Assembly: GCF_017901135.1 (NCBI RefSeq)
Contig: NZ_CP072801.1
Span: 2,108,001 to 2,172,000 of the forward strand
Reading direction: 5' to 3'
DNA length: 64,000 nucleotides
DNA from: Thiothrix litoralis
GTDB taxonomy: Bacteria > Pseudomonadota > Gammaproteobacteria > Thiotrichales > Thiotrichaceae
Below, one piece after another: positions 17,728 through 50,497 of this stretch. Each line of letters starts with the position of its first letter. Position 1 is the first letter of the stretch. A program made the translations under genes and the position numbers. The notes beneath the pieces are model-generated. The model saw only the letters and a list, made by a program, of their open reading frames with translations. It was not told where the DNA came from and made no database searches.

Positions 17728-17738
17728 GTTTCCCTCGC

Positions 17739-19156: not shown

Positions 19157-19242
19157 CTTCTGTCATTCTTATATACAGAAGTTGTCTATTTTAATAAAAT
19201 TAACCTATTTCGCACTATAATAACCATTAAATGGAGAAAGTG

Positions 19243-19812: not shown

Positions 19813-19859
19813 ATGAAAGAGTTAAGTGCGCTATTTTAGTAATATTAGGAGTTAACATC

Positions 19860-20300: not shown

Positions 20301-20321
20301 TGAAATGCCAGGGGGAGCATG

Positions 20322-21230: not shown

Positions 21231-21233
21231 GTG

Positions 21234-21575: not shown

Positions 21576-21578
21576 AAA

Positions 21579-21866
21579 ATGTCGAGTGTCGGTTATCACG
21601 AACCCATCGAAGAACTGTCGGATGCAACCCGCGATATGCACCGCGCCATTGTTTCGCTAATGGAAGAGCTGGAAGCGGTCGACTGGTATAACCAGCGGGC
21701 GGATGCCTGCAAAGATCCAGAACTCAAAGCCATTCTGGAACACAATCGTGACGAGGAAAAGGAACACGCCTCGATGGTGCTGGAATGGATTCGGCGCAAA
21801 GACCCGAGGTTTTCCAAGGAACTCAAGGATTACCTGTTCACCGACAAACCCATCGCGCACCCGTAA
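21579..21866 (+). CDS. Encapsulated-ferritin-like (EncFtn family) protein
   Basis: 95 residues, all helical. It has YHEPIEELSDATRDMHRAIV, EELEAVDWYNQRADA and HNRDEEKEHASMVLEWIRR, the EncFtn pattern with the iron-binding Glu and ExxH residues in two helices. EncFtn proteins form ring-like ferroxidases usually packed in encapsulin shells through a C-terminal tag. Here the end (LFTDKPIAHP) shows no obvious tag and no encapsulin gene lies nearby. It is the last gene of the cbpA operon, three bases after cbpM. It may act unpackaged or with a shell encoded elsewhere. Confidence 0.85.
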   Translation: MSSVGYHEPIEELSDATRDMHRAIVSLMEELEAVDWYNQRADACKDPELKAILEHNRDEEKEHASMVLEWIRRKDPRFSKELKDYLFTDKPIAHP

Positions 21867-24490: not shown

Positions 24491-26313
24491 CTAAACTATC
24501 TGCATACTTCAACCAAAATGTTGCCACGCTATGATCCAATTTCCTTACGGTATCAGTGATTTCCAGCGAATTCGCTCCCAAGGTATGTTGTACCTTGACC
24601 GCACTGCCCACATCCCGGCGATAGAAGCCGCTGGGGATCAGTTGGTCTTTCTGCGCCCCCGCCGTTTCGGGAAATCTTTGCTGCTGTCAACGCTGGCGAA
24701 TTACTACGACTGCCACACCGCAGATGAATTTCCTGCGCTGTTTGGCGGTCTTGCCATTGGCAAAAATCCTACTGCCGAACGTAACCAATACCTGATCCTG
24801 CGTTGGGATTTTTCCAAAGTGTCGGGGCAAGGTGATGTTGAACAAATTAAGCGCAATCTGTTTGAGCATATTAACGCTGCGGTAGAGGAGTTTGTGGAAA
24901 AGTACCGCAACACCCTGACCTCTGCCGTCACGATCTTGCCACATAATGCGATTGCTTCCTTTGAATCCTTGGCAGGCGCAGTCAAAAACAGCGGGCATAC
25001 TCTCTACCTGTTGATCGACGAATACGACAATTTCGCCAATGAAATCCTCACCAGCGACCCGCGTGATCGAGTGCGCTACCACGACCTGCTGGAAGGCGAA
25101 GGCGTGTTGAAAACCTTGTTCAAAGTGATCAAGGCCAGTGCTTCCGAGAGCAAAATTTCACGCGTATTCATCACGGGCGTTTCCCCCGTGGTCTTGAGCG
25201 ACATGACCAGCGGTTACAATGTCGCCACCAGTATTTATCTGGATGAAGACTTCAACGCACTTTGTGGCATCCCCGAAGTGGAATTACAGGGGCTTGTGCA
25301 ACAGATTATACACGGGCATGGTTTAGCCGAGACGCACGTCGCCGAGGTGATGGAAACCTTGCGCCGCTTTTACAATGGCTACCGCTTCTGTAAAGATTTG
25401 ACGCAAGCCACGGTGTATAACCCGACCTTGTGTTTTTACGCTTTACGCCATTACCAGAAAAAAGCCCAACTGCCCGACCAAATGCTCGACGGTAATTTGG
25501 CCATGGATGCGGGGCGTATCCGTTACATTGCCAACCTGCCTGTGGGTGCAGCCGTGATTGACCAGATTCTGGATGAAACCCGCACCACGCCCCTGCGACA
25601 ACTGGAAACCCGGTTCGGGGTAGAGCAATTGCAGCGGGTGCAACACGATCCGAGCTATATGCTTTCGCTGCTGTACTTTTTCGGGGTGCTCACGATAACG
25701 GATGTAGATGGCATGGGGCGGCTGGTGCTAGCCATTCCCAATCTGGTGATCCGTGGCTTGTACGTGGAGCAACTCAAAGAACAAACCCTGCCGCGCTTTG
25801 AAGATCAGCAAACCGCGCAACATTTGGCGGAAGACTTCTACCAAACGGCTGACTTACAACCCGTGGTCGAATTCGTCGAGAACAAATATTTCGCCGTGTT
25901 CAGCAACCGTGATTACCGCTGGAGTAACGAACTCACGGTAAAAACGGCTTTCATGACACTGCTGTTCAACGATCTGTATTACATCATGGATTCGGAAGCG
26001 GTGGTGCAGCGACGTTATTCCGACTTGCTGATGATTATCCGCCCCAATATGCGGCGTTTCCCGTTGCTAAAAGACATTGTGCTGGAATTCAAATACGTGT
26101 CGCTGGCAGATGCCAAACTCACCGCAGAACAAGTGCGCAATCAATCCCGTGAAACCTTGGCAGCCTTGCCCGTGGTGCAAACCGCGATGCAGGCAGCGTT
26201 GACCCAGTTGCGGGATTACCGGCAGGCATTGGAAACCAAATACCAGCAGCCAGAACGTCTGCATTGTCTGGCAGTGGTGGCACTGGGGTTTGAGCGCGTG
26301 CTGTGGGAAGCGT
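24489..26313 (+). repeat. Long direct repeat, left copy
   Basis: About 1825 bases, nearly identical to 30713-32537 in the same orientation. It starts at TGCTAAACT before the ATPase/nuclease gene and ends at GAAGCGT just before its stop. The only strongly divergent part is the stretch encoding residues 99-150. Homologous recombination between copies would remove the DUF262 pair. Confidence 0.9.
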
Positions 26314-26318
26314 CATGA
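24531..26318 (+). CDS. AAA-ATPase-like / PD-(D/E)XK nuclease fusion, copy 1
   Basis: 595 residues of the family with an N-terminal AAA-ATPase-like domain (PF09820 type) and a C-terminal PD-(D/E)XK nuclease-like domain (PF08011 type). A Walker A-like motif is [11 protein letters not shown] (42-52); Walker B is [10 protein letters not shown] (158-167). The nuclease signature is [11 protein letters not shown] then [20 protein letters not shown] near the C-terminus. Function is unknown; such genes occur in many dispersed copies in some genomes. Copy 2 at 30755 differs at about ten residues outside positions 99-150 but at over half of the residues inside it. Confidence 0.9.
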   Translation: MIQFPYGISDFQRIRSQGMLYLDRTAHIPAIEAAGDQLVFLRPRRFGKSLLLSTLANYYDCHTADEFPALFGGLAIGKNPTAERNQYLILRWDFSKVSGQGDVEQIKRNLFEHINAAVEEFVEKYRNTLTSAVTILPHNAIASFESLAGAVKNSGHTLYLLIDEYDNFANEILTSDPRDRVRYHDLLEGEGVLKTLFKVIKASASESKISRVFITGVSPVVLSDMTSGYNVATSIYLDEDFNALCGIPEVELQGLVQQIIHGHGLAETHVAEVMETLRRFYNGYRFCKDLTQATVYNPTLCFYALRHYQKKAQLPDQMLDGNLAMDAGRIRYIANLPVGAAVIDQILDETRTTPLRQLETRFGVEQLQRVQHDPSYMLSLLYFFGVLTITDVDGMGRLVLAIPNLVIRGLYVEQLKEQTLPRFEDQQTAQHLAEDFYQTADLQPVVEFVENKYFAVFSNRDYRWSNELTVKTAFMTLLFNDLYYIMDSEAVVQRRYSDLLMIIRPNMRRFPLLKDIVLEFKYVSLADAKLTAEQVRNQSRETLAALPVVQTAMQAALTQLRDYRQALETKYQQPERLHCLAVVALGFERVLWEAS

Positions 26319-26425
26319 TGTGAAAGGGTTACCAGCATCCCGATAACTAATTCTAATGATTGAGCGTACTCACTAATTGATGATAAAGTGTTCAGGCTAA
26401 ATTCATTTTGACGGGAAATAGGGCT

Positions 26426-28279
26426 ATGTCTGAACAAATTGAAAACAATAAACTTGTACCAGTTAAAGATTTATTGAATAAAAAATTCTTAATTCCATCC
26501 TACCAACGTGGCTACCGCTGGACGTGTCGTCAGGTCAACGATTTACTCGATGATATTTTAGAATTCTCCCAAAATAATGTAGACAGTTACTATTGTCTAC
26601 AACCTTTAATTGTTAAAGAAACAGAAAATGGTGACTATCAAGGCTTTTGGGAGGTTATAGATGGTCAACAACGTCTGACAACTATATACATTATTTTTAG
26701 TTATTTATTATCCAAAGAAAGACTCCCCATTTGCATTGACCTTGAAGAGTTTGAAATTCGTTATGAAACTAGAGAGCAACAAGGGTGCAATAGTGCTGAT
26801 TTTCTAAAAAATATCAATAGAAAGTCAGATTTTGAAGCGAAAAATAACGTTGATTTTCTACATATGTCTAACGCTTACAAAACCATAGAAAAATGGTGTG
26901 GAAAATATGAGTTTAATGTCGATGTTTTATTGAGTAATGTTAGATTTATTTGGTACGATGTCAACAGAAAAGATCATAAAGAAGAAGATTCTCATTATGT
27001 CTTTGCCCGCTTAAATATGGGAAAAATCCAACTGACTAATGCAGAACTTATTAAAGCATTGTTCTTGCAACGAAAGAACTTTGGTGATCATGCGGAAACG
27101 ATTAGACGTAAGCAACTTGAAATAGCTATGGAGTGGGATACGATTGAACTTGCTCTACAAGATGATGATTTTTGGTATTTCTTGAATACAGAAAAGTGCG
27201 AAACACCAACTAGAATCGAATTCATCTTTGATTTGATTAGAGATTCTGATGAAGATGAAGCAAAAAATCAAAAGAAAAATAAGTATATTAATTCCGATAA
27301 GTTTTACACGTTTTTCTATTTTCAGGAGAGATTTAAAAAAGATCCAATTGAGGTTATGTGGAGTTGTATTAAAAATAAATATATGATATTTAAAGAATGG
27401 TTTGAAGATGATAAACTTTATCAATTGATTGGTTTTATGATTGCTGCAAAAACACATAAAACTCATGATTTGATTAAATTGAACAGTAATAACAAGTCAA
27501 AAGTTCTCTTTGAAGAAAATCTAAAAGAAGAGATAAAAAAGACTTTGTGGAATAGTCATTCGGATTTGAGCTTTATTGATAAGTTAAAATATTATGATAA
27601 GGATAATAAAAAATTAATTGGAAATATTCTGCTATGGTTTAATGTGACATATACATCTCTTCAATATAAAGACAATAAAATATACCGCTTCCCCTTCGGA
27701 TATTACAATCGTGTTTGTGAAAGCACGCCTTGGAGTTTAGAGCATATACATGCACAGAAGTCCGAACATCTCAAAAAATTAGAGCAGTGGCGAATTTGGT
27801 TTTCAGATCATTTACTCTTTTTGGAAAAAGATACCACAAACTCTAACGAAGTAATTATTGCCGAAATTAAAAATGAAATTAAAAATATTGATGATGCACG
27901 TAAAGATAAAAATATTCAAGAGGAAATAGATTATCAAAGTGAAACCATGAAAAGGTTTTTAGGCATTTATGCTCAAGTTTTCTCATTGTTTGGTATTGAA
28001 TCAGATGGCATCGAAAATCTTGCATTGTTAGATGGTCGTTCAAATACAGCACTGAGTAATTCGATTTTTGCAGTAAAACGTCAAAAAATTATTGAAATGG
28101 ATTTGAATAAGAATAATGTTTTTATTCCTCCCTGTACTCGTCATGTGTTTCTTAAGTACTTTACTAACTATCCTTCTCAATTTTATTTTTGGAGTAAATC
28201 TGATGCAGATTCTTATTTAAAAGCTATTAAGAAAAATTTAGAAGAGTCTTTGCTGATTGAAGAAGGTGAAAATAAATGA
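26426..28279 (+). CDS. DUF262/DUF1524 protein (GmrSD-like), first of a pair
   Basis: 617 residues from the ATG at 26426; a TTG at 26408 is also in frame. The DUF262 motifs are IPSYQRGYRW (about 30-39 of the longer form) and VIDGQQRLTTIYIIF. A DUF1524-like HNH signature WSLEHIHAQ lies in the C-terminal third. GmrSD-type proteins are type IV restriction nucleases using NTP and cutting modified phage DNA. The gene is strikingly AT-rich with many AAA, GAT and TTT codons, unlike its neighbours, indicating recent transfer. It overlaps the second DUF262 gene by 4 bases. Confidence 0.87.
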   Translation: MSEQIENNKLVPVKDLLNKKFLIPSYQRGYRWTCRQVNDLLDDILEFSQNNVDSYYCLQPLIVKETENGDYQGFWEVIDGQQRLTTIYIIFSYLLSKERLPICIDLEEFEIRYETREQQGCNSADFLKNINRKSDFEAKNNVDFLHMSNAYKTIEKWCGKYEFNVDVLLSNVRFIWYDVNRKDHKEEDSHYVFARLNMGKIQLTNAELIKALFLQRKNFGDHAETIRRKQLEIAMEWDTIELALQDDDFWYFLNTEKCETPTRIEFIFDLIRDSDEDEAKNQKKNKYINSDKFYTFFYFQERFKKDPIEVMWSCIKNKYMIFKEWFEDDKLYQLIGFMIAAKTHKTHDLIKLNSNNKSKVLFEENLKEEIKKTLWNSHSDLSFIDKLKYYDKDNKKLIGNILLWFNVTYTSLQYKDNKIYRFPFGYYNRVCESTPWSLEHIHAQKSEHLKKLEQWRIWFSDHLLFLEKDTTNSNEVIIAEIKNEIKNIDDARKDKNIQEEIDYQSETMKRFLGIYAQVFSLFGIESDGIENLALLDGRSNTALSNSIFAVKRQKIIEMDLNKNNVFIPPCTRHVFLKYFTNYPSQFYFWSKSDADSYLKAIKKNLEESLLIEEGENK

Positions 28280-30687
28280 ATTTTTGTGAGCTTATTGAAA
28301 AATATACCATTACGATTCCTATGATTCAGCGTGATTATGCTCAAGGGAGGAAATCAGCAGCAGAAGGAAACATCAGGAGGGAACTATTGTCTGATGTAGA
28401 TAAAAATATTAACACTGGTCTACATCTTGATTTTATATACGGTTCTGTTGACGAGAAACTGCTCATATTTACTCCCTTAGATGGCCAACAACGTTTAACA
28501 ACGTTATTCTTGTTACATTGGTATGTGGCAGCGAGAAATAACTATTTGAATGATAATGAAAAGAATAGGCTAACAAAATTTCGATACGAAACAAGAATAA
28601 GTTCCACAGATTTCATAGCAGCACTGGTTGATAGTATTGGAAGTATAACAGTAGAAAATACATCTAAGAAAAACCTTAGTGAAAAAATCAAAGATTGCAC
28701 ATGGTTTTTTTCATCTTGGGAACATGACCCAACAGTATCGGCGATGTTAGTAATACTGGATGCAATCCATGAGAAATTCTGTGGAAAAATTGATTCTTTA
28801 GTAAATATTAACAAGCTAACATTCGATTTTATAAATCTTGATGATTTCAAGTTAACCGATGATTTATATATAAAAATGAATGCGAGAGGTGTTCCATTAA
28901 CACCGTTTGAAAATTTTAAGTCAAAATTTGAAAAGCTACTTTTATCTGATAAATTAAAAAAAGAAACATTTGAAGAAAATCCAAAGAAGTATTTTCTAAA
29001 AGACTATTTTTCAAATAAGATTGAAACTGATTGGGTTGAAAATCTTTGGGAATATGTTGAAGAAAAAGAAATTTGTGATCTTAAATACTTGACGATTGAT
29101 AAGTCATTCATGCGTTTCTTTTGGTATATCACTGAAATGCTTTATTTTAAAAGTGGCAATTTTTTAAAAAGCAATAGTGGGAAATTAAAGATACATAATT
29201 TCAAATATGATCATGATGGTGATCCAGATATTGATTATGCTGTTGTTGACGAAGTGTATGATGGTAATCTAGGAAATATTCACTATCTTTTCAAGATTTT
29301 AAATAAAATAAAAATAATAAAGTCTTTAATTGATGGTGTTTTATCCTATGAACATCAAGAAGGAAAAGTTTCTTTATTTACAAAGAACTTTGATCTTCTT
29401 GCTAAAGTCATGAAAACAGAAAAGGGGACAGAAAGAATTGATCATCAAAGCAAGTTAATTTTGTTTGCAATAATAAATTATGTATATCATGACTTTGATG
29501 AAAAAAAGCTAGGTGATGATCACTTACATGATTTAGTTCGTGTTGTCAGGAATTTACTAGTTAGAGTAAGAAAACAATCTGGCATTTCGTTTTTCTCAGA
29601 TTTAAATGATGAAAAAATGTATAATTGCATTAATGTCATGCGTAGCCTAACTTGTGATGGAAATGTTTACAGAATACTAGAAAATGAACCTCATGAAAAT
29701 TTCTTGATTAATAATGAGCAGTTGTATTCTATTCATTCTGAAATTAAGAAAGCTAAATTGATAACACAATATCCAGAATTGAGGGAGGCTATCTTTAAGC
29801 TTGAAGATCATCTTGAAGTTAAGGGAGCTATTCATAACTTCATGCCAGAAATAGAAGAAAGCTTCAGTAGTGAATTCATTGTAACTTTTCAAAAACGTGT
29901 AAAAGCATTTAATGAGATATGGAGTCAAAACTGTTCGCGAATTGTAAGAGGATTTTTGGTAGTTAGCAATTATAGCACCTGGGCAGGTGGATCTTCTAAT
30001 TTAGGCGGTTTGTGGTTTTTTGGGATTAAAAATAATTGGAATGTTATTCTTGCAAAGAACACCAATAACGAAAATAAAGATTTCTTGGTAAAGTATTTGA
30101 GTGAATGCTGCAAAAATAATTTATCGCTTGATGATTTAATAAATAATTATATTAATTCATGTGATCGTGAAGGAGAGCTAGAGTGGAAATATTACTTTAT
30201 AAAATATAGTTGGATGACTTGTGCGGGAGGGCGTTATAAAAATATATTTGCTTGGAAAAATAAATATGGATTTAGAGTGCAAGATTTCTCAGGAATTAGA
30301 TCAAGTGCAGAACATGTGAATCCGTATGCTAGAACGGTTAAATCTATAGTTAATAAGCATATTGATGAGAGCAAAACATTTTCTTCAGGCAATGAAGAGA
30401 ATCCATTATGCTTGAAAGAAGATGATATAAAATTATTCTGTGAAGAAAATGGCTGGAGGGTAGAGATTACTGACATTCCTACTCATAACAATACATGTTT
30501 CATCGACTGTTGGTTGATTACCAATCTTCCTAATATTCAAATAGAAGCTGGAAAGGCATGGCTCAAACCAACAGAAAAAATGGACATGATCGAAGTTGCC
30601 GTTGCTTTTATTTGCGAATTATATCAGCTAGACAATCCATTGGATAAAAATAAAGTGGTTGATGGTTGTGCGGAGGGTGTTGCATGA
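28276..30687 (+). CDS. DUF262-family protein, second of a pair
   Basis: 803 residues. The N-terminal DUF262 motifs are ITIPMIQRDYAQGR (about 12-25) and TPLDGQQRLTTLFLLHWY (about 67-84). A C-terminal domain with SWMTCAGGRYKNIFAWKNKY and SSAEHVNPYARTV may carry a nuclease or HNH-like site, but I do not recognise it for certain. It starts in ATGA with the first DUF262 gene. Pairs of different DUF262 proteins occur in defence islands; the division of labour is not known to me. Composition is as AT-rich as its partner. Confidence 0.83.
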   Translation: MNFCELIEKYTITIPMIQRDYAQGRKSAAEGNIRRELLSDVDKNINTGLHLDFIYGSVDEKLLIFTPLDGQQRLTTLFLLHWYVAARNNYLNDNEKNRLTKFRYETRISSTDFIAALVDSIGSITVENTSKKNLSEKIKDCTWFFSSWEHDPTVSAMLVILDAIHEKFCGKIDSLVNINKLTFDFINLDDFKLTDDLYIKMNARGVPLTPFENFKSKFEKLLLSDKLKKETFEENPKKYFLKDYFSNKIETDWVENLWEYVEEKEICDLKYLTIDKSFMRFFWYITEMLYFKSGNFLKSNSGKLKIHNFKYDHDGDPDIDYAVVDEVYDGNLGNIHYLFKILNKIKIIKSLIDGVLSYEHQEGKVSLFTKNFDLLAKVMKTEKGTERIDHQSKLILFAIINYVYHDFDEKKLGDDHLHDLVRVVRNLLVRVRKQSGISFFSDLNDEKMYNCINVMRSLTCDGNVYRILENEPHENFLINNEQLYSIHSEIKKAKLITQYPELREAIFKLEDHLEVKGAIHNFMPEIEESFSSEFIVTFQKRVKAFNEIWSQNCSRIVRGFLVVSNYSTWAGGSSNLGGLWFFGIKNNWNVILAKNTNNENKDFLVKYLSECCKNNLSLDDLINNYINSCDREGELEWKYYFIKYSWMTCAGGRYKNIFAWKNKYGFRVQDFSGIRSSAEHVNPYARTVKSIVNKHIDESKTFSSGNEENPLCLKEDDIKLFCEENGWRVEITDIPTHNNTCFIDCWLITNLPNIQIEAGKAWLKPTEKMDMIEVAVAFICELYQLDNPLDKNKVVDGCAEGVA

Positions 30688-30758
30688 ATGACCTAAGCCT
30701 TGTGGCAGCCCGTGCTAAACTCTCTGCATACCCCAACCAAAATGTTGCCACGCTATGA
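30684..30758 (+). other. Possible 24-codon coupling ORF between DUF262 and ATPase genes
   Basis: MNDLSLVAARAKLSAYPNQN then VATL and TGA. Its ATG overlaps the DUF262 stop by 4 bases and its TGA overlaps the next gene's ATG by 4 bases. The part AKLSAY.NQNVATL is also conserved in front of copy 1 at 24489. It may only couple translation, or be the tail of a lost upstream gene. Confidence 0.3.
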
Positions 30759-32537
30759 TCCAATTTCCTTACGGTATCAGTGATTTCCAGCGAATTCGCT
30801 CCCAAGGTATGTTGTACCTTGACCGCACTGCCCACATCCCGGCGATAGAAGCCGCTGGGGATCAGTTGGTATTCCTACGCCCGCGTCGTTTCGGGAAATC
30901 CCTGCTGTTGTCAACGCTGGCGAATTACTACGACCGCCACACCGCCGATGAATTTCCAGCACTGTTTGGCGACCTTGCCATTGGCAAAAATCCTACCGCC
31001 GAACATAACCAGTACCTGATCCTGCGTTGGGATTTTTCCAAAGTGTCGGCTCAGGGTGATCTTGCCGCCATTACTGGCAACCTATTCCGCCATCTGAACG
31101 AGTGCATCAAGGGTTTTGCGCAAAAGTATCAGGCAATCCTCCAGTTTCCGATCACGGTTTATCCAGAAGATGCGTTGGCGAGTTTTGATTCTTTAACCAA
31201 CAGTGTGAAAAACAGCGGGCATACTCTCTACCTGTTGATCGACGAATACGACAATTTCGCCAATGAAATCCTCACCAGTGACCCGCATGATCGGGTACGT
31301 TATCACGACCTGCTGGAAGGCGAAGGCGTGTTGAAAACCTTGTTCAAAGTGATCAAGGCCAGTGCTTCCGAGAGCAAAATTTCACGGGTATTCATCACCG
31401 GCGTTTCCCCCGTGGTCTTGAGCGACATGACCAGCGGTTATAACGTCGCCACCAGTATTTATCTGGATGAAGACTTCAACGCACTTTGTGGCATCCCCGA
31501 AGTGGAATTACAGGGGCTTGTGCAACAGATTATGCACGGGCATGGTTTAGCCGAAACACACGTCACCGAGGTGATGGAAACCTTGCGCCGCTTTTACAAT
31601 GGCTACCGCTTCTGTAAAGATTTGACGCAAGCCACGGTGTATAACCCGACCTTGTGTTTTTACGCTTTACGCCATTACCAGAAAAAAGCCCAACTGCCCG
31701 ACCAAATGCTCGACGGTAATTTGGCCATGGATGCGGGGCGTATCCGTTACATTGCTAACCTGCCGGTGGGTGCAGCCGTGATTGACCAAATTCTGGATGA
31801 AACCCGCACCACGCCCCTGCGACAACTGGAAACCCGTTTCGGAGTTGAGCAATTGCAGCGGGTGCAACACGATCCGAGCTACATGCTTTCGCTATTGTAC
31901 TTTTTCGGGGTGTTGACGATAGCGGATGTGGATGGCATGGGGCGGCTGGTACTGGCCATTCCCAATCTGGTGATCCGTGGTTTATACGTGGAGCAACTCA
32001 AAGAGCAAACCCTACCACGCTTTGAAGACCAGCAAACCGCGCAACATCTGGCAGAAGACTTCTACCAAACGGCTGACTTACAACCCGTCGTCGAATTCGT
32101 CGAGAACAAATATTTCGCCGTGTTCAGCAACCGTGATTACCGCTGGAGTAACGAACTCACGGTGAAAACCGCCTTCATGACACTGTTGTTCAACGATCTG
32201 TATTACATCATGGATTCGGAAGCGGTGATCCAGCGGCGTTATTCCGATCTGCTGATGATTATTCGCCCCAATATGCGGCGTTTTCCGCTGCTGAAAGACA
32301 TTGTGCTGGAATTCAAATACGTGTCGCTGGCAGATGCCAAACTCACCGCAGAACAAGTGCGCAATCAATCCCGTGAAACCTTGGCAGCATTGCCCGTGGT
32401 ACAGGCAGCGATGCAGGCAGCGTTGACCCAGTTGCGGGATTACCGGCAGGCATTGGAAACCAAATACCAGCAGCCAGAACGTCTGCATTGTCTGGCAGTA
32501 GTCGCACTGGGTTTTGAGCGGGTGCTATGGGAAGCGT
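30713..32537 (+). repeat. Long direct repeat, right copy
   Basis: Partner of 24489-26313: same orientation, same length (1825 bases), shared from TGCTAAACT to GAAGCGT. It follows the AT-rich DUF262 pair immediately. Confidence 0.9.
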
Positions 32538-32542
32538 GCTAA
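30755..32542 (+). CDS. AAA-ATPase-like / PD-(D/E)XK nuclease fusion, copy 2
   Basis: 595 residues, near-duplicate of the gene at 24531 with the same [16 protein letters not shown] and nuclease-domain [11 protein letters not shown]...LEFKY motifs. Residues 99-150 read quite differently ([20 protein letters not shown] here against GQGDVEQIKRNLFEHINAAV in copy 1), while both sides are almost identical. This suggests gene conversion around a retained variable block or import of that block from a third paralog. The stop overlaps the convergent ABC ATPase gene by 4 bases. Function unknown. Confidence 0.9.
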
Positions 32543-38874: not shown

Positions 38875-39099
38875 TTAAAGATTCGTTTCGAGCTTCATGC
38901 CTTCGGCATCAATTTTTAAGCCAGTGATGGCGGCTTCAGCTTCTTCAAGGCTAAAGTTATAACGTTCTTGTAATTTACCGACAAGCACTTCAACCTTGCC
39001 GCCGATTTCCAGTAAATCATCATCAGTCAATTTACCGAATTTCTCGCGCACTTTGCCTTTCACTTGATGCCAGTTTGCTGACATATAGTTCGTATTCAT
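38875..39099 (-). CDS. CsbD family stress protein
   Basis: 74 residues. The start ANWHQVKGKVREKFGKLTDD is the CsbD signature, followed by DLLEIGGKVEVLVGKLQERY. CsbD-like proteins are small helical stress proteins whose role is not known. A long mRNA hairpin lies just upstream (39151-39200). Confidence 0.92.
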   Translation of the reverse strand: MNTNYMSANWHQVKGKVREKFGKLTDDDLLEIGGKVEVLVGKLQERYNFSLEEAEAAITGLKIDAEGMKLETNL

Positions 39100-39150
39100 G
39101 GTGTTGATCCTTTAAAGCGCTTGTTAGCTTTTTTGATAGAAATTAAAGAG

Positions 39151-39200
39151 TAAGGCAACCCACTTTTTTCTTTGAGGGGAGAAATAAGTGAGTTACCTTA
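39151..39200 (-). repeat. Long imperfect inverted repeat upstream of csbD
   Basis: Arms TAAGGCAACCCACTT (39151-39165) and AAGTGAGTTACCTTA (39186-39200) pair with two mismatches, and TTTCT/AGAAA inside can extend the stem around a CCCCTCAA loop. No T run follows. It could be an mRNA-stabilising or processing hairpin between the coiled-coil gene and csbD. Confidence 0.5.
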
Positions 39201-39244
39201 AATATGCCAGACTGTCAGTAAAACTTATCAGAAGAGGAGTAGAA

Positions 39245-39535
39245 TCAGGCTTTGAACTTGGCGGCAGCATGTTGAACGGAAGTACTCCACGCATTCCACG
39301 CTGTTTCCACACCCTCTTTAAGATCCTCCCATGCGCCATCACTGGCTTCGCCCAGCTCTTTCAATCTGGCTTTGGTGTCATCAAACCGTTGTTCAAGTTC
39401 ACTCATCTGCTTGTTATAGCTGATGCGGGTATCGGCTGACACTACTTTGGCATGGGCTTGGAACTCGGCTAATTTAGCTTGAGCCAAGGCTAACTCGGCT
39501 TCGACTTTTTGTTGATAGTCTTCTTTAGTATTCAT
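39245..39535 (-). CDS. Coiled-coil protein, unknown function
   Basis: 96 residues, almost all helical: an N-terminal heptad-rich stretch (DYQQKVEAELALAQAKLAEF), DTRISYNKQMSELEQRFDD and a C-terminal WEDLKEGVETAWNAWSTSV. Similar short proteins occur beside csbD and other stress genes. It is the first gene after promoter-like site B (57 bases upstream). No enzymatic motif. Confidence 0.7.
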   Translation of the reverse strand: MNTKEDYQQKVEAELALAQAKLAEFQAHAKVVSADTRISYNKQMSELEQRFDDTKARLKELGEASDGAWEDLKEGVETAWNAWSTSVQHAAAKFKA

Positions 39536-39591: not shown

Positions 39592-39621
39592 ATTAGGCGC
39601 TATATTTTTTACTATAGCAAG
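39592..39621 (-). promoter_or_regulatory. Recurrent stress promoter-like element, copy B
   Basis: On the minus strand TTGCTA (39615-39620), 17-base spacer ending TATAGCG, then CCTAAT (39592-39597). It contains the dyad GCTATA-N8-TATAGC (39599-39618). It points at the coiled-coil/csbD/lipoprotein cluster. Confidence 0.65.
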
Positions 39622-39700: not shown

Positions 39701-42700
39701 TCAATAAATAGAGGTTATTTTAACCTCAACGTAATGCTCAATATGGTCATCCAGCAAGGGAATAATACCGTCAGGCTGATTCACACCATCCAATGTCACC
39801 CTACTGTCATTATCTTCAGCGTTTAATAGCGAAATCACAATGTGGTAAAGCGTTTCCCGATAACGATACAGCATTTTGAATCCCGCCCAGTCTGGCGGTA
39901 AACACGGCTCAAAGCGTAAGCTATCGCCTTCGCGCCGCAATCCCAGCAACGATTCGGTGATCAGCCGGTACATCCAGCTTGCCGAACCGGTGTACCACGT
40001 CCAACCACCACGCCCGGTATGCGGTGCAATGCCATACACATCCGCCGCTACCACGTATGGCTCGACCTTGTAGGTGGCGATGCCATCTGCGGATGTCCCA
40101 TGGTTCACAGGATTGATCATGCCCAGCAATTCCCACGCACGTTCGCTGTCGCCTAAACGGGCAAACGCCATCGCAGCCCAAATCGCGGCATGGGTGTATT
40201 GCCCACCGTTTTCGCGCACCCCCGGCACATAGCCCCGAATATAACCGGGGTTCAAGTCAGACGTATTGAACGGCGGGTCTAACAATTGCACCAGCGCATG
40301 ATCGCGGCGCACCAGATGGGTATTCAGCGATTGCATGGCCTGTAAGCTGCGTTCCGGCGAACCGATCCCGGAGAGTACCGACCAACTTTGTGCAATCGAA
40401 TCAATCTGGCATTCCGGGTTAGTGCTGGAACCCAACGGCGTGCCGTCATCGAAGTAAGCGCGGCGATACCATTCGCCATCCCAGCCGTGACGCTCAAGAT
40501 TCTGGTGCAATTGGTAACGTTCCTGCTGGCAACGTTCAGCGAAAGGAATGTCATTGTGCAGCCGTGCCAGTTCGGCAAATTGCCCCAGCACTTCGCACAG
40601 GAAAAAGCCCAGCCAGATGCTTTCGCCCTTGCCCTCGATGCCGACCAGATTCATGCCATCGTTCCAGTCGCCCGACCCCATCAGCGGCAAACCGTGTTCA
40701 CCCAAGCGCAAGCCGTGCAAAATGGCGCGGACACAGTGCTGGTACAGGCTGGCAACTTCAGCAGAATGCCCCGGCAAGTCGTAGTACGAATCTTCCCCGG
40801 CATTCACCGCCCGCCCGCTGAGGAAACCGCGTGGCTCATCCAGCACTGCCCTGTCGCCCGTAGTCAGGATGTAACGGCACGTCACCAGCGGCAACCACAA
40901 ATAATCATCGGAACACTGGGTGCGCACGCCCCGGTCGGATGGCGGATGCCACCAATGCTGCACATCGCCTTCCGCAAACTGATGCCCCGCACACAGCAGC
41001 AAATGCTCACGAACTTTATCCGGTTCGGCATGAACCAGCGCCATCACATCCTGCAACTGATCGCGGAAACCGAATGCGCCACCGGATTGGTAATAACCGC
41101 TGCGCCCCCACAAACGGCAACCCAGCGTCTGGTACAACAGCCAGCCGTTGGCCAGCATGTTCACCGCCGCATCGGGCGTTTCCACCTGCACCGTGCTCAA
41201 GGTTTTTACCCAATAATCCTGCACCTGTTTGAGGGCATTGCGGGTGGCCTCTACCCCACGGAAACGTTGCACCAAGGCTTGAGCATCGTGCATATCACGC
41301 CCCGCGCCGAGCTTGAAGACAATTTCCCGCTCGTGTCCCGCTGCCAGTTCAAACGACACCTGAATAGCCGCGCAAGGGTCAAGTGCTGCGCCGACTTTGC
41401 CGGACAGGTAAGCCCGTTGCAGTGCCGCCGGGTGACGCAGCGTGCCATTGCGCCCGATGAATTCGGCACGGTCGCCCGTGAAGGTGTGATTCCTATCATC
41501 CACGGCGAAAAACGCTACCCGTTCCGCAAATTCCATGCTGTAAGGGTTGCGGGCGAATAATGCGCCGATAGGGGCGGTACATTCGGTAATGATATGCGGG
41601 GCTGATTTCGGGGTTAAATCGCCCAGCACCCATTCCACGTAACCCGTCGCCGAAAGCTGGCGGGTGCGGCCTGAGGCGTTGCGCACCTTCAATACCGAGA
41701 ATTTGACCGAGGCATCCAGCGCTACAAACACCGTGAGTTCCGAATAAATGCCGTTTTCGTTGTGTTCAAACACGCTGTAGCCAAAACCGTGGCGGCTGAT
41801 ATACGCCCCCGCTCCCGGACACGGTAACGCGGTGGGCGACCAGAACTCGCCGCTGTCTTCATCACGCAAATACAGGGCTTCGCCGCTTAAATCGCTCACC
41901 GGGTCGTTATGCCACGGGGTCAGGCGGTATTCGTGGGCATTTTCGCGCCATGTATACGCCTGTCCGCTCTCGGAAATCACCGTGCCAAAGTGAGGATTAG
42001 CCAGCACATTCACCCACGGCGCGGGTGTCGTCTGGTCGGCGGCGGGGGTCATCACGTATTCGCGCCCATCAGCGGTGAAGCCGCCCAAGCCGTTGAACAG
42101 GATCAGGTCGTCACGCGGCAACAAACTGCCCACAGCTTGCGGGTCATGGAAAGGATAACGGCTGGGTTTGAAAGGCGGCACGCGCACCTCCGTCAAGCTC
42201 CAGCGATTCACTTGATCCGTCAGCGAACCTTTGCTGTCACTGAGAATGGCGCGGGCAACGGATTGGATCAGGATGCGGTCTTCGCTGGAAATCTGGTCAG
42301 CATGGCGTACAAAAATACCACCGGGGCGGTCGATCACGTGCGCTTCCACACCCCACGCAATCAGCCCCATGATTTGTTCTTGCAGCACCTGACGGTAGCC
42401 TTCGCGGTCTTCGTTCCAGATCACCAGATCGACCGTTAAGCCTTTCAAGCGCCAGTACGCATGGGCTTTGACCAACTGGCGTACCAGCTCGATATTGTCC
42501 AGATCCTTGATTTGCAACAGCACAATCGGCAAGTCGCCGGAAATGGCGTGCGCCCACAGGCCGGATTGCCCCCGGTGATTGCTGATCAAGGTGCTGGCAT
42601 CCGCCCGCAGCAAGGCGTGAGAATAAATCACTAAATTGGCCAAGCGTGCATAGAGTTGCGCTTCCGCTTCGCTGGCATTGAGCTGGCGTAATACCACTTG

Positions 42701-45700
42701 GCTGTGCGTCCACGCCAGATCGAATACGCGGTTAGCGAGGCGGCGGTCACGGTATTTTTCCACCAGTTGCAAGCTAGCTTCACGGGTAGCGGCAATGCCG
42801 ATGACCATATCGAGCGTGACCGAGGCTTCGGGTTCGAGGGTAATGCGGTGGCGGATGGCGACGATGGGGTCAAGCACTGCGCCCACGCTGCCGGACAGAT
42901 GATCGACGGCGGTCATGGCGTGCGGGGCAACGAGGGTTTTGCCCCGCCCAATGAATTGCGCCCGGTCGGTTTCATAGGAAATGCCGCTGGAATCGCCTTC
43001 ATGTACCGCCATTAAATGGAATAGCCACGGGCTGTGTTCATCGAGGGCGCGCGGGCGACGGGTACACAGAATGGCTTGCAACGGGTCAACGATTTCGGTT
43101 TGCACAAACAGCTTGCTGAACGCCGGGTGCAAGGTGTCAGAAGCCGCTGAAGCCAACACAACTTCGGCGTAACTGGTGACTTCAATGGTACGGCGTAGCG
43201 GTGAGTCATTGGTGATACGCACCCGGCGCAATTCAATGTCGTCTTCCGGCGACACCACAATGTCGAGGTGCGTATCGAAATCGTGGTCACGGCGACGGAA
43301 TTCCGCACGACCTTCCGAGAAAATCGCTTCGTAATGCTCTGCCGGAACCAGTGTGGGTTGATGTGCGGTTGACCAGAATGCGCCACTCGCTACGTCACGG
43401 ATGTAACAGAACGTGCCCCAATGATCGCGGGTAGTGTCTTCGTGCCAGCGCGTGACAGCCAAATCTTTGCAACGGCTGTAACCGCCACCGGCATTGGTCA
43501 CCATGACGTGATAATGCCCGTTGGAAAGCAACTGCACTTCCGGGAGCAACGTATTCGGGTTATTGAGGACGCGGATAGGGATTTGCGGTTCGCTGGAAGC
43601 CAGCAGAATTTCGGAAACTTCCGCCGCTTGCGTATAGAAGGCGGTGGCTTTGGGAATGCGTTCTTGCAGCAACAACAGCGTCGCCTGAAACGGCGGATTC
43701 GCCGCAAAACGGCGTTGCATCGGCCGATCCAGCAGCAAATAAGCCAGTGCCAACAAACTCATGCCTTGATGGTGCGCCATGAACGACTGGATCACGACCC
43801 GCTCTTCCCCGCGCCGTTGCCGGGAGGGGGTGTAATCGACCGCCTCGTAAAAGCCAAATTTGCCCACCATGCCATCAGCCGCGAGGCGTTGCAGGTTTTG
43901 GCAGGCCGCTTCGGGGTCAACCATCAGCGCCATCGCCGAGGCATACGGAGCAATCACCAAATCTTCCGCCAGCCCGCGTTTCAACCCCAAACCGGGTACA
44001 CCGAACGCTCGGTATTGGTAATTGAGATGCACATCGACGATGTTATAGCCGGATTCCGACGTACCCCACGGCACGCCGCGCTGCTTGCCATACGCAATCT
44101 GGCGTTGCACCACTGCATGGTAGGTCTGGTCAATCAGGGTATTGGCATAGGTTGGCATCACCAGCAAGGGCATCAGGTATTCAAACATCGAGCCGCTCCA
44201 CGACAGCAGCGTTGGCTCGCCATCGGTGGTAATCAGCAGCCGCCCTAAGGCAAACCAGCTTTCTTGCGGCACTTGTTGCTGTGCAATCGTCACGAAACTG
44301 CACAGCCGCGCTTCCGAGGCCAGCAAGTCGTAATAACTCGCGTCGCGGTGGCGTTCCGTCACGTTGTAGCCAATAGCAAACAAGCGGCGCGGCTTGTCGT
44401 AAAGGAAATCGTATTGCATACACGCCAGAGCACTGGCCTGTAACGCCAATTGTTCCAGCGCCGCGATGCGCTCCTGCGCCTGCTGACGGCTGGCCGGAAT
44501 CAGCAACAATTCCCGCAAGGTCGGAATGCCCGCAAAGTCATCACCCACCCCATCCGGCACCAGCAGGCGCAAATCATCCAGATGCGCCCGACACTGCCAA
44601 GCCAAAGCAAGCGCCCATTCGCTGGTATCGCCTACCGCAAGGTCGCTGAGGTGTTCCAAGCAGCGCTTGACCGCTGTGAGTGTGGTTGGGCGCGTGCTAG
44701 CCGCCGCTTCCAACGCCGTGCGCAGCGGAATCAAGGGTGGTGGCGTCAGATCAGACGTATTATCCAGCAAAACCCCGACCGTATCTTGCAAGCCTTCCAG
44801 CCAACGCACCGCCAGAATCGGTTGATCCGGCAAAGCCAGCAACCCCGGTTGCAAGGTCAGCAAATGACCACCCAGATTGCCGCTATCCACCGTGGACACG
44901 TACATCGGCAACAAGGGTTGCAGCGATTGCGTGTCATACCAGTTGTAAAAATGCCCGTGGTAACGCTCCAGACGCTCCATTGTGCGTAACGTATTCGCAG
45001 TGCGCTCAATCAGCCCACCCAGCGGCAAGTAACCAAAATCGTAAGCCGCCAAATTCGCCAACAACGCCATGCCCATATTGGTCGGCGAAGTACGGTGCGC
45101 CACGCCCACCTCACGGTACACCTGATAGTTATCCGGCGGCAGCCAGTTATCTTGCACCCCGACCAAATGCTCAAAGTAAGCCCACGTCTTGCGGGCAGTC
45201 TTCCGCAAAAACACGGTCTGGTCTGGTGTAAGCTTGCTGGTACGCCGAGCCAGTGGTTCACTCACCCACCAAAGGATGGCAGGCGCTAACCACCACGCCA
45301 GCAGGATAGGCGCTGCCACCAGCAAGGCTTCCGGGCGGGTCAGTACCAAATACAAGCCAGCGGTCACGGCAATGAATGGCGCAATCCACATGGTGCGGTA
45401 AGTATCCACCAGCTTGGTGCTGTCGCGGTTGGCTTCGCTCGACGGGTTCCATTCCAGCAGCCGTTGCTTGGAAACTCCCATCCGCCACAGCGTGCGTAGA
45501 ATCGCATCCAGACTGAAATAGGCTTCGTATGGCAAGCAAATCAGCGTCAGTGCTGCTTGGGAAAAATGCCCTTCCGCCGCCCGCATTTCAGCCGCAAGGT
45601 GTTGGCTCAGTAGCAGATCCGTCGGTTTGCGCACCAGACTCAACAAGGACGCACTCACCGAGGGAATCAGCAAAATCGCCAGCACTGCCAGCGTCCAGAA

Positions 45701-48262
45701 ACCCGCGTCTGGCAACACTGTCCAGCCCAGCAGCAACAACAGCGTCAAGGCCGCCGCCGTAAGACTGCGCCGCAGGTTGTCGAATACTTTCCAGCGTGAC
45801 AGCCACGACAACGGGTTTTTGTGGCGCTTTTGCCCCAAGCCCGACACGGTGGGTAATAACCAGCCCAGTAACTGCCAGTCACCGCGAATCCAGCGATGCC
45901 GACGGTTCACATCGGCACTGTAACGGTTGGGATATTCTTCATACAACAACACATCACTGAGCAGCCCTGATCGCGCATAACAGCCTTCCAGTAGGTCGTG
46001 GCTGAGAATGCGGTTTTCCGGCAGCCGTTCGCCCAAGGCTTGCTCGAACGCATCCACGTCGTAGATGCCTTTACCGATGAACGAGCCTTCGTTAAACACA
46101 TCCTGATACACATCAGAAACGGCGCGGGTGTAAGGGTCGATGCCAGAATCGCCGCCATACAAACGGGCATAATGCGACAGGTTCGGAGCGGAAAGGCTCA
46201 CGCTGACGCAGGGTTGCAAGATGCCGTAACCTTGCGTCACCCGTTGTTTGGCAGGGTCGTAAACCGCGTGGTTGAGCGGATGCGCCAGCGTGCCGACGAA
46301 TTGGCGAGCAGCGTCACGCGGAAGCTGGGTATCGGTGTCGAGGGTAATCACGTACTTGACCCCAGCGAGCGGCGTGATGTCCCCCACGATCAGCGCGAAA
46401 GCGTCTTTTGCACCGCCGCGTAGCAGCGCATTCAAATCCGCCAGTTTGCCGCGTTTACGTTCGTAGCCCATCCACACTTGAGCGTGTGGATTCCAGCGGC
46501 GCGGGCGGTGAAACAGGAAGAAAGTGTCACCCGATTCGCCCGGATATTTGGCATTCAGATGGTCGATGCCCGTTTGGGCTAGCTGCAACAGCGCCGCATC
46601 GCCTGCCAGCACTTCTTCCGGCGCGTCCAGAAAATCGGTCAACAGCCCAAAATGCAGGTGGGCATCCCGATTGGCGAGGAAGCGGACTTCCAACGTCTCC
46701 ATCATGCTTTCAATGCTGGCAGCGTTACTCAGCATAGTGGGCACAACCACCAAGGTGCGCGACGGCAGCGGAATACCCTCGGAAAAGTCCATGCGCGGTA
46801 AGGCATACGGGGTAGTCAGCAAGGTTGCCAGCCAGTTCACCAGCGCCACCGACAGGTAGCTTGTAGCTAGCGCCGACAAGATACCCAGCAGCACGAGATG
46901 CCAACCCTGTACACCCTCGGCATGGGCTTGCAGCAATAAACCGCCGGTAAACAGCAGCGTCAGCAGCGCAATACCGCCCACAAAGGAGAGCAGAGGTAAG
47001 CAGCAAACCACCCGTTGCAGTTTCGCGAGTAAGGGTAGCCGTGTTTGTGCGGCTTGTTCGAGCTGGGGTAAGCCCGCGTCGATCAGGTAAAAGCCAACGT
47101 GTGCGGTACGATCAGTTTCGCCATGACTTGCTGCGGCGGCGTGCGCCAATTGCACGGCTAATTGCGCGACTTCGCCTTCGGAATAATCGGTGTATTTGGC
47201 AATTTTTTCCACTACGTGGCGGTAGCGGTCGCGGGTGGCAAAATCCATGGCGCGGTAAGCACTGCCGGGGTCGTTGCACAGGGTTTGCTCGACCACGCTC
47301 ATGGTTTCGACGAATGCCTGCCAATCCATCGAGCCAAGAAAGCGCAGGCTGCCGATGCTGTTGCCGATCGACACTTGATCAGCGGCTTGTTGCTGGCTTT
47401 CGATCTGCACCAGTTGCTCAATGGTCAGGTGTGATTCTGCCAGCAATTGCTCGATCCAGCTCAATGGCAAGCCCAACGCGGCACTCTGCCATTGCAGGCG
47501 GCGCACCAATTCCGCCACAAACGGGGTGGTCATCGGCGGGTTGGAACGCGCCATATCCGCAATGACAATAATCAGGCTTTTGGGGTCTTGTTCCGCTGCC
47601 TCAACCATGCGATTTGCCCACGTATCGGCCAGATCCTGGTCAATTTTGTCAGCCGTAATCCGTGCGGCAATGCGCCGCAGGTTTTCGATCAGTGCCAAGC
47701 GTAACATGATGGGGATTGCCCACAACTCCCCCAGCTTGAGGGGTGTGACGCTCTGGTAAGCCGTGACGAAACGGCTGAGGCTGTCAGGGTCAACGCGCCC
47801 ATCGCCGTGTGCAATGTTTTCCAGCGCAATGTCATACACACGCGGCAATCCGCTGGATACGCCGTCCGACAAACGCGGCAGTTCGCGGCTGTAACCTTGC
47901 GGCAAATGGCGTTTGGCGGTGCGGATTTGCTCATCTATCAAATAGAAATTGTCCAGCAACCATTCACCCGCCGGGGTGAGCCTGCGGTTGGCACTGACCG
48001 TGGCGGTTAACACGCGGGAACATTCCACCAGCACGGCTTCGTTGTCAGAGAGGCGGTCAAGAAGTTGATCCTGCACCGATTGTTGGGTGAGGTGGTGCGT
48101 GTCTGCCAAGGTTCTGCCGTGGCGTTCCATCTGGTCGGCGCTGAAGAGTTCGGCACGTAACGGTTGGGTTTCTTTGGTGTGATCCCGCACTGCATTGACA
48201 CGGAAAGATTGCGCCCCCCAGACACGGATACTGCTTAACAGGGTTTTAGGCTTGGCTTTCAT
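39701..48262 (-). CDS. ndvB: Cyclic beta-glucan synthase (NdvB/ChvB type)
   Basis: 2853 residues, the size of NdvB/ChvB. The N-terminal part is helical and cytosolic. A first membrane group (LLSFVGGIALLTLLFTGGLL) precedes a glycosyltransferase domain with LVVVPTMLSNAASIE, KYVITLDTDTQLPRDAA and RHRWIRGDWQLLGWL. A second membrane group follows. The C-terminal part shows repeated carbohydrate-binding modules and a GH94-like phosphorylase domain (GSGDWNDGMNLVG, WTWYTGSASWMYR). These enzymes make periplasmic cyclic beta-1,2-glucans that buffer osmotic pressure. It starts in ATGA with the AI-2E-type transporter gene, last in an envelope-stress operon. Confidence 0.93.
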   Translation of the reverse strand: MKAKPKTLLSSIRVWGAQSFRVNAVRDHTKETQPLRAELFSADQMERHGRTLADTHHLTQQSVQDQLLDRLSDNEAVLVECSRVLTATVSANRRLTPAGEWLLDNFYLIDEQIRTAKRHLPQGYSRELPRLSDGVSSGLPRVYDIALENIAHGDGRVDPDSLSRFVTAYQSVTPLKLGELWAIPIMLRLALIENLRRIAARITADKIDQDLADTWANRMVEAAEQDPKSLIIVIADMARSNPPMTTPFVAELVRRLQWQSAALGLPLSWIEQLLAESHLTIEQLVQIESQQQAADQVSIGNSIGSLRFLGSMDWQAFVETMSVVEQTLCNDPGSAYRAMDFATRDRYRHVVEKIAKYTDYSEGEVAQLAVQLAHAAAASHGETDRTAHVGFYLIDAGLPQLEQAAQTRLPLLAKLQRVVCCLPLLSFVGGIALLTLLFTGGLLLQAHAEGVQGWHLVLLGILSALATSYLSVALVNWLATLLTTPYALPRMDFSEGIPLPSRTLVVVPTMLSNAASIESMMETLEVRFLANRDAHLHFGLLTDFLDAPEEVLAGDAALLQLAQTGIDHLNAKYPGESGDTFFLFHRPRRWNPHAQVWMGYERKRGKLADLNALLRGGAKDAFALIVGDITPLAGVKYVITLDTDTQLPRDAARQFVGTLAHPLNHAVYDPAKQRVTQGYGILQPCVSVSLSAPNLSHYARLYGGDSGIDPYTRAVSDVYQDVFNEGSFIGKGIYDVDAFEQALGERLPENRILSHDLLEGCYARSGLLSDVLLYEEYPNRYSADVNRRHRWIRGDWQLLGWLLPTVSGLGQKRHKNPLSWLSRWKVFDNLRRSLTAAALTLLLLLGWTVLPDAGFWTLAVLAILLIPSVSASLLSLVRKPTDLLLSQHLAAEMRAAEGHFSQAALTLICLPYEAYFSLDAILRTLWRMGVSKQRLLEWNPSSEANRDSTKLVDTYRTMWIAPFIAVTAGLYLVLTRPEALLVAAPILLAWWLAPAILWWVSEPLARRTSKLTPDQTVFLRKTARKTWAYFEHLVGVQDNWLPPDNYQVYREVGVAHRTSPTNMGMALLANLAAYDFGYLPLGGLIERTANTLRTMERLERYHGHFYNWYDTQSLQPLLPMYVSTVDSGNLGGHLLTLQPGLLALPDQPILAVRWLEGLQDTVGVLLDNTSDLTPPPLIPLRTALEAAASTRPTTLTAVKRCLEHLSDLAVGDTSEWALALAWQCRAHLDDLRLLVPDGVGDDFAGIPTLRELLLIPASRQQAQERIAALEQLALQASALACMQYDFLYDKPRRLFAIGYNVTERHRDASYYDLLASEARLCSFVTIAQQQVPQESWFALGRLLITTDGEPTLLSWSGSMFEYLMPLLVMPTYANTLIDQTYHAVVQRQIAYGKQRGVPWGTSESGYNIVDVHLNYQYRAFGVPGLGLKRGLAEDLVIAPYASAMALMVDPEAACQNLQRLAADGMVGKFGFYEAVDYTPSRQRRGEERVVIQSFMAHHQGMSLLALAYLLLDRPMQRRFAANPPFQATLLLLQERIPKATAFYTQAAEVSEILLASSEPQIPIRVLNNPNTLLPEVQLLSNGHYHVMVTNAGGGYSRCKDLAVTRWHEDTTRDHWGTFCYIRDVASGAFWSTAHQPTLVPAEHYEAIFSEGRAEFRRRDHDFDTHLDIVVSPEDDIELRRVRITNDSPLRRTIEVTSYAEVVLASAASDTLHPAFSKLFVQTEIVDPLQAILCTRRPRALDEHSPWLFHLMAVHEGDSSGISYETDRAQFIGRGKTLVAPHAMTAVDHLSGSVGAVLDPIVAIRHRITLEPEASVTLDMVIGIAATREASLQLVEKYRDRRLANRVFDLAWTHSQVVLRQLNASEAEAQLYARLANLVIYSHALLRADASTLISNHRGQSGLWAHAISGDLPIVLLQIKDLDNIELVRQLVKAHAYWRLKGLTVDLVIWNEDREGYRQVLQEQIMGLIAWGVEAHVIDRPGGIFVRHADQISSEDRILIQSVARAILSDSKGSLTDQVNRWSLTEVRVPPFKPSRYPFHDPQAVGSLLPRDDLILFNGLGGFTADGREYVMTPAADQTTPAPWVNVLANPHFGTVISESGQAYTWRENAHEYRLTPWHNDPVSDLSGEALYLRDEDSGEFWSPTALPCPGAGAYISRHGFGYSVFEHNENGIYSELTVFVALDASVKFSVLKVRNASGRTRQLSATGYVEWVLGDLTPKSAPHIITECTAPIGALFARNPYSMEFAERVAFFAVDDRNHTFTGDRAEFIGRNGTLRHPAALQRAYLSGKVGAALDPCAAIQVSFELAAGHEREIVFKLGAGRDMHDAQALVQRFRGVEATRNALKQVQDYWVKTLSTVQVETPDAAVNMLANGWLLYQTLGCRLWGRSGYYQSGGAFGFRDQLQDVMALVHAEPDKVREHLLLCAGHQFAEGDVQHWWHPPSDRGVRTQCSDDYLWLPLVTCRYILTTGDRAVLDEPRGFLSGRAVNAGEDSYYDLPGHSAEVASLYQHCVRAILHGLRLGEHGLPLMGSGDWNDGMNLVGIEGKGESIWLGFFLCEVLGQFAELARLHNDIPFAERCQQERYQLHQNLERHGWDGEWYRRAYFDDGTPLGSSTNPECQIDSIAQSWSVLSGIGSPERSLQAMQSLNTHLVRRDHALVQLLDPPFNTSDLNPGYIRGYVPGVRENGGQYTHAAIWAAMAFARLGDSERAWELLGMINPVNHGTSADGIATYKVEPYVVAADVYGIAPHTGRGGWTWYTGSASWMYRLITESLLGLRREGDSLRFEPCLPPDWAGFKMLYRYRETLYHIVISLLNAEDNDSRVTLDGVNQPDGIIPLLDDHIEHYVEVKITSIY

Positions 48263-50145: not shown

Positions 50146-50292
50146 TTATAAGCGTCTGCCTTGAATAACACGCACCAGAATAACCACGATGGCGATAACC
50201 AATAGAATATGAATGAGTCCACCCATGGTGTATGAGGTCACAAACCCCAACAGCCAAAGGACAATTAAAATGATTGCAATCGTTTCGAGCAT
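50146..50292 (-). CDS. Lmo0937-type small membrane protein
   Basis: 48 residues: MLETIAIILIVLWLLGFVTS then YTMGGLIHILLVIAIVVILV and RVIQGRRL. Two helices with GG at the turn and a basic end are the pattern of the Lmo0937 family. It starts at the ATG at 50292. It is the first gene of the ElaB-YqjE-transporter-glucan synthase string, 176 bases after promoter-like site C. Confidence 0.8.
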   Translation of the reverse strand: MLETIAIILIVLWLLGFVTSYTMGGLIHILLVIAIVVILVRVIQGRRL

Positions 50293-50467: not shown

Positions 50468-50497
50468 ATTAAGCGCTATATTTTCTGTTATAGCAAG
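50468..50497 (-). promoter_or_regulatory. Recurrent stress promoter-like element, copy C
   Basis: On the minus strand TTGCTA (50491-50496), 17-base spacer ending TATAGCG, then CTTAAT (50468-50473). It has the dyad GCTATA-N8-TATAGC (50475-50494). It points at the Lmo0937/ElaB/YqjE/transporter/glucan synthase operon. Confidence 0.65.

Follow-up and report, generated by a model that had tools for sequence, protein, structure and literature searches.

A conserved element in one gene cluster of Thiothrix

We find that a signal of 30 letters, with the core CTTGC[T/A]A, 13 bases and AG[C/A]GC[C/T]TAATG, recurs in a fixed orientation in front of neighbouring groups of stress and envelope genes in Thiothrix, and that this element is real, genus-specific and confined to one gene cluster. 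Most likely it belongs to the promoters of the operons that it precedes and is read by one dedicated factor, as the same signal at neighbouring stress-gene groups suggests that one protein would control them all together. Taking the comparisons below as a whole, we lean, with some reserve, towards a promoter-embedded element whose single shared reader co-regulates three or four clustered stress and envelope operons in this genus.

The window, by which we mean the whole 64-kb stretch of DNA that was analysed, holds three exact copies of the core, all on the minus strand, at 50468–50497 (copy A), 39592–39621 (copy B) and 19127–19156 (copy C). Read on that strand they give TTGCTA-N17-CTTAAT, TTGCTA-N17-CCTAAT and TTGCAA-N17-CCTAAT, respectively, each with a C before the left box and AGCG running into the right box. 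A variant, copy D, lies at 18206–18235 on the same strand (TTGCTA...AGAGCGCCATAAT) and carries one extra base inside its right box (GCGCCATAAT). The preliminary description had read TTGCWA, exactly 17 bases and a CCTAAT-like hexamer at all four sites; this is correct for copies A to C, and 'exactly 17' fails at 18206 because the hexamer found at 17 bases is CCATAA and CATAAT follows only at 18. With up to two mismatches allowed, the strict pattern CTTGCWA-N13-AGMGCYTAAT matches nothing in the window but copies A, B and C, as against a mean of 0.10 matches and a maximum of 1 in 100 shuffles.

For a genome-wide view we used a gap-tolerant, sequence-only model of 42 columns built from 20 copies. 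Among the matches listed for the own genome, the three exact copies were followed by the variant (18.8 bits, E 0.005) and then by weak matches from E 0.06 onwards, with no other strong copy. As the own copies had trained this model, they were scored again with a matrix from the nine other genomes against an independent-base background, which gave genome-wide E values of 9.6e-9 for A, 2.5e-6 for B and 2.8e-10 for C. Copy D scored 4.4 as it stands and 4.3e-5 with one A skipped, so that it would count as a convincing copy only if one base is skipped. A matrix built from locus B alone in the nine other genomes recovered the own copies A (E 3.1e-7) and C (E 1.5e-5).

Of 16 genomes of the genus, 10 carry strong copies by this model (E <= 4.4e-7), 30 in total, nine at locus A, ten at B, eight at C and three at D, with nothing between E 4.4e-7 and 0.005 among the matches listed. 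All 30 lie in one gene cluster at orthologous places: counterparts of copy A are seen in 8 more genomes and those of copy C in 7 more, and copy B precedes the orthologous gene in each of the ten carriers. Such retention at operon heads in related species (30 copies, 10 of 16 genomes) is as expected of a regulon element with one shared trans-factor. Ten of the 30 places were outside the training set; one of these is letter-identical to a training row, and each of the remaining nine agrees with the closest row at 32 to 41 of 42 positions. Per genome the searches scored 150 or 102 candidates out of first-look totals of some 300 to 3,800, and weaker copies may therefore have been overlooked.

Protein searches led to the same places. 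The sll1863-type coiled-coil gene behind copy B has orthologs in 10 genomes of the genus, the own one included, all ten with the element upstream; its relatives occur in 16 of 40 genomes, six of them weaker and outside the genus. Further copies were reached through the DsrC-like and ElaB-like proteins, the latter having one close relative among named genomes (75% identity, on a Thiothrix contig), and the search with the DUF302 protein gave distant relatives only.

Beyond the genus, an order-wide set of 63 genomes, all of one family and 47 of them from outside the genus, held no strong extra-genus copy among the matches listed. Only one extra-genus match below 0.001 was listed, in G044 (E 3.6e-4); like the matches in G022 and G019 it is a half-match, and all three were rejected as element copies. 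The cluster stretches of G009, G014 and G021 gave chance fragments only (best E 0.72). Viral contigs yielded 9 exact matches, about the chance level by an uncontrolled estimate, and plasmids one match covering 54% of an 81-base query (E 0.2). No RNA family scored above its gathering score in the window between 14000 and 51000.

Looser patterns were also run on the own genome. A stricter form with 18 matches includes the three known copies, and its reversed control gave 23; a loose form gave 302 matches where its reversed control gave 161, an excess for which coding sequence and a repeated 29-mer, and not the element, are the presumed source. Of the 302, 100 were listed, and the three exact copies are absent from these though the pattern should match them. 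A genome-wide motif search that placed the element at random positions had been named as a refutation of the idea. This was not borne out: the strong copies keep to one cluster, and of the 43 looser matches fetched (from the 18-match set and the 100 listed) 39 are spanned by a stop-free frame of 130 codons or more. The 29-mer itself is a dispersed repeat with at least nine identical copies in the genome (for example G000:C1:6711, 8548 and 258136).

Genes behind the element

Gene maps of the 10 carriers were drawn from mechanical ORFs of at least 55 aa, with families assigned from Pfam and NCBIfam. The first gene behind copy A encodes an lmo0937-family membrane protein of 48 aa (50146–50292, minus strand; NF033488 at 69.6 bits, cut-off 30; DUF5670). 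ElaB-like, YqjE-like and AI-2E genes follow, and then a cyclic beta-glucan synthase-type protein of 2853 aa with GH94 domains (39701–48262, minus strand), the whole forming, to judge from its layout, a putative operon from 50292 down to 39701. Copy B likewise appears to head an operon, with genes for an sll1863-family coiled-coil protein (39245–39535), CsbD (38875–39099), both on the minus strand within 38875–39535, a YtxH-like protein and DUF481, continuing to HlyD/MacB. A terminator-like hairpin on the minus strand at 39711–39727, where the glucan synthase frame has its final codons, is consistent with a separate transcript starting at copy B.

Copy C stands between a minus-strand DsrC-like gene (18633–19031) and a divergent plus-strand block at 19231–21866, comprising a membrane protein without a family match (19231–19812), Host_attach (19866–20300), CbpA/DnaJ (20319–21230), CbpM/MerR_2 (21231–21575) and an EncFtn-like gene (21579–21866). 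Variant D heads the Pfam-assigned minus-strand genes for DUF302 (17739–18122), PPK2 (16840–17727) and phosphoketolase (14453–16822), together 14453–18122. Among the gene labels of these groups, those of the DUF302, PPK2, phosphoketolase, CsbD, GH94 glucan synthase, sll1863 and lmo0937 families were confirmed. The ElaB-like and DsrC labels fall below their cut-offs (DUF883, 25.2 bits against 25.4; DsrC, 17.1 against 24.9), as does the YtxH-like one (20.2 against 37.5), and for YqjE we found no curated-family match above cut-off.

The carriers repeat this arrangement. The element stands before ElaB-like and/or glucan synthase genes at locus A (9 genomes), ahead of the sll1863 gene and those following it as far as the HlyD/MacB exporter at locus B (10 genomes) and beside the divergent membrane protein/CbpA/CbpM block at locus C (8 genomes). 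At locus D there are strict copies in 3 genomes, besides the own variant, directly before a phosphoketolase operon (transaldolase-phosphoketolase, the transaldolase being our reading of the sequence). Behind copy C, DsrC-like or transaldolase-phosphoketolase genes follow in 6 of 8 genomes: DsrC-like in G001 and G006, and in G011 after one ORF, and transaldolase in G010 and G007; in G002 a 92-aa ORF without relatives is found there. In G008 two related ORFs of 506 and 525 aa (L118, G008:C6:1625734-1628883) part copy C from the transaldolase operon. Altogether, 28 of the 30 strong copies lie at most 242 bases before a same-strand ORF, one of them 2 bases inside it, and the two outliers are copy A of G007 (524 bases) and copy C of G008 (3409 bases).

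Copy A was not seen in G010. The cluster parts of G007 lie on two contigs and were taken as one cluster split by assembly. In favour of a shared control element, two non-carriers, G004 and G013, hold decaying remnants of the cluster without strong copies, and the latter shows the scar of a lost cluster, with a weakened copy C next to pieces of the membrane-protein and phosphoketolase genes and a near-whole CbpA gene (L226, G013:C22, around 35160). On the other side, G014 and G009 have kept ElaB-like operons without the element, and ElaB-like genes thus do not depend on it everywhere.

If the element is read as we propose, one DNA-reading protein would recognise it at every site and so co-regulate the operons of the cluster, joining glucan synthase with ElaB-like genes, sll1863/CsbD with the MacB exporter, and phosphoketolase with transaldolase or PPK2. 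This probable single regulon would bring together the sll1863, CsbD, lmo0937, ElaB-like and DUF302 proteins, phosphoketolase and the large glucan synthase, and would thereby link poorly understood stress proteins of filamentous sulfur bacteria, stress being the presumed signal. The element is short, and could serve as a testable DNA bait for the regulator of these genes. Searches of the literature on Thiothrix promoters and sigma factors, RpoS, stress response and phosphoketolase, which took in few subscription journals, brought up no description of such an element among the papers listed; a match on RpoS concerned Beggiatoa and not an element of this kind.

Anatomy of the element

Over the 30 copies information peaks at CTTGC-A, at an AAT just 5′ of the right box and at AG-GC-TAATG, and it drops outside the boxes, where smaller peaks (for instance an A two bases past the right box and a T-run beyond) may be explained by kinship between copies. 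The conserved spacer end first noticed in the window is real, AAT and AG being conserved over the 30 copies. The distance between the boxes is the same in all 30, though the script that collected them required this; in the gap-tolerant model the own variant is the only indel-bearing match among those listed. We suggest that the two boxes, at their rigid distance, would occupy the -35 and -10 positions of the operons that they head.

At its second position the right hexamer has C in 22 and T in 8 of the 30 strict copies; the copy scan favoured C or T at this position, and the model without that rule found the same 30. A sigma-70 -10 hexamer requires A here, and the pyrimidine therefore speaks against an ordinary sigma-70 -10. 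The element does resemble the sigma-70 promoter (TTGACA-N17-TATAAT) in the TTG of its -35, the 17-base distance and the TAAT at the end of its -10, but differs from it in this pyrimidine in 30 of 30 copies and in the conserved spacer end. A sigma-70 scan demanding A at -10 position 2 and T at position 6 gave no match at 19127, 39592 or 50468, and matched only the variant at 18206 (TTGCTA-18-CATAAT, 9 of 12).

A dyad, GCTATA-N8-TATAGC, had been noted at 39592 and 50468 and taken to fit a regulator overlapping the promoter. The dyad is exact at both sites; the regulator model drawn from it found no support, since in 20 copies there is no pair in which both partners have changed, and pairing was equally good in 240 of 500 shuffles. 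The register of the dyad does pair better (80.8%) than registers slid by 1–3 bases (12–66%), as is expected when the structure was taken from these same 20 copies.

Could an ordinary intergenic segment simply have been duplicated or homogenised in recent times, with no dedicated reader at all? The copies lie close together in one cluster, and a flank of six bases, TTTACC, is common to 7 of 10 B copies and 4 of 9 A copies. Beyond TTTACC, however, the flanks vary between loci while the boxes are near-invariant across ten genomes, and locus C has retained its own left box and flank in 8 of 8 copies. We consider this origin very improbable, and continue to favor a shared reader.

A concerted base change

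One column of the right box points to such a reader. The change from AGCGC to AGAGC is found in 7 of 30 copies, namely in all four copies of G011, in two of three in G003 and in one of the 23 elsewhere (in G007). Permuting the labels among copies gives p 5.8e-4, or 1.5e-3 when the B and D copies shared by G003 and G011 are counted once and 6.8e-4 when G003 is left out; the permutation is blind to kinship, and the concerted change is thus support, not proof. The same base change in all four copies of G011 suggests one shared reader and, as a natural experiment, may show how regulator and sites change in step. A bolder and clearly more tentative proposal is that a sigma factor or a regulator bound at the promoter, undescribed so far and with this one stress and envelope island as its entire regulon, shifted its specificity together with its sites in the lineage of G003 and G011. 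Together with conservation across species, confinement to one cluster and fixed orientation, the concerted change lends good support to the original idea of a shared stress and envelope control element.

Candidate readers

The preliminary description left the choice between a stress regulator and an alternative sigma factor. A sigma factor of the ECF or another type might read the two boxes as -35 and -10, as could be expected from an asymmetric two-box layout in one orientation with a rigid 17-base distance and TTG at -35, and the own genome has candidates, with 11 sigma-factor region-2 matches that comprise RpoD, RpoS and RpoH by NCBIfam and eight others. ECF sigmas usually control themselves, and among the model matches listed no element lies near any of the 11; GAACTT, the -35 of the sigma-E type, is absent from the element. 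A survey of the genus for ECF-type (PF08281) sigmas covered 141 loci, among which one gene appears twice, with matches listed to about E 4e-7, and 17 of these loci gave no ORF matching the seed profile. Among the sigmas recovered, none is present in 10 of 10 carriers and in 0 of 6 other genomes: three types occur in 16 of 16 genomes, the nearest approach (L136) occurs in all ten carriers but also in 4 of 6 others, and carrier-limited types are found in only one or two genomes (for example L130, in 2 of 10). Four ECF types compared for G003 and G011 offered no convincing culprit, L136 having no residue specific to these two. We regard an alternative sigma factor as rather unlikely. Given how small and local the regulon is, and that none of the sigmas recovered tracks the element, we favour a dedicated regulator working with RNA polymerase over a new sigma factor.

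The gene content of the cluster also calls to mind RpoS, whose regulon in E. coli includes elaB, yqjD, yjbJ, talA and cbpA, and which is present in Thiothrix, so that the element might be a sigma-S or gearbox-like variant of a stationary-phase promoter. For comparison, the gearbox consensus (bolA P1 type) was taken from PMC5650638, and PMC3089606 was also consulted. The K-12 bolA promoter, CTGCAA-N15-CGGCTAGTA, agrees with copy C, TTGCAA-N15-CGCCTAATG, at 16 of 34 positions (p 4.8e-4 with the 30-copy matrix in a fixed register), the two sharing a left box [C/T]TGCAA, a 15-base distance, CG-C-TA-T and an association with stress or stationary-phase genes. The bolA site is also the second-best place in its own 1.1-kb stretch. 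When 52 E. coli upstream regions were ranked by best score, however, bolA came 9th and cbpA, elaB, yqjD, yjbJ and talA each 16th or lower; ymdF, which is RpoS-dependent, came 1st. The resemblance to gearbox or RpoS promoters is thus no better than that of several other E. coli upstream regions, and the E. coli likeness is unconvincing. Gearbox promoters are, moreover, scattered, unlike the Thiothrix element with its confinement to one cluster, and an element read by RpoS would not be expected in a single cluster either. RpoS is found in 16 of 16 genomes of the genus, and its DNA-contacting regions 2.4 and 4.2 are unchanged in G003 and G011 despite the concerted base change, for which reason RpoS was rejected as the cause of that change. 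We therefore hold an RpoS or gearbox reading to be improbable.

No convincing regulator was seen among the genes of the cluster. One candidate is its MerR-like protein, CbpM, which might read the element by analogy with HspR, a protein that reads the HAIR inverted repeat. The element begins with CTTG, a CbpA-MerR gene pair belongs to the cluster, and CbpM is encoded near copy C in a gene with a MerR_2 domain and a weak HspR match that is present in 10 of 10 carriers. On the other hand, the pairing test gave no support for a maintained inverted repeat in the element, and the protein is of the CbpM type, its closest solved relative being the chaperone modulator CbpM. A DNA-reading helix normally has basic residues, and the putative helix region of CbpM is acidic and without them. 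CbpM also occurs in 4 of 6 non-carriers, with close versions in G004 and G013, though these keep remnants of the cluster. CbpM is accordingly disfavoured as the reader, and we give the idea scarcely any credence.

Other features of the cluster

Two features of the window deserve mention apart from the element. Behind the phosphoketolase gene, a match to class I fructose-bisphosphate aldolase (13845–14456) occupies a frame of only 203 aa, which looks truncated or internally deleted. Farther along in the stress cluster, two 595-aa AAA-ATPase-like/PDDEXK_9 proteins of one sequence cluster (24531–26318 and 30755–32542) flank a GmrSD_N-type gene pair (26408–30687); at this place other carriers have one copy with the pair (G001), one copy without it (G003, G006 and G010) or none.
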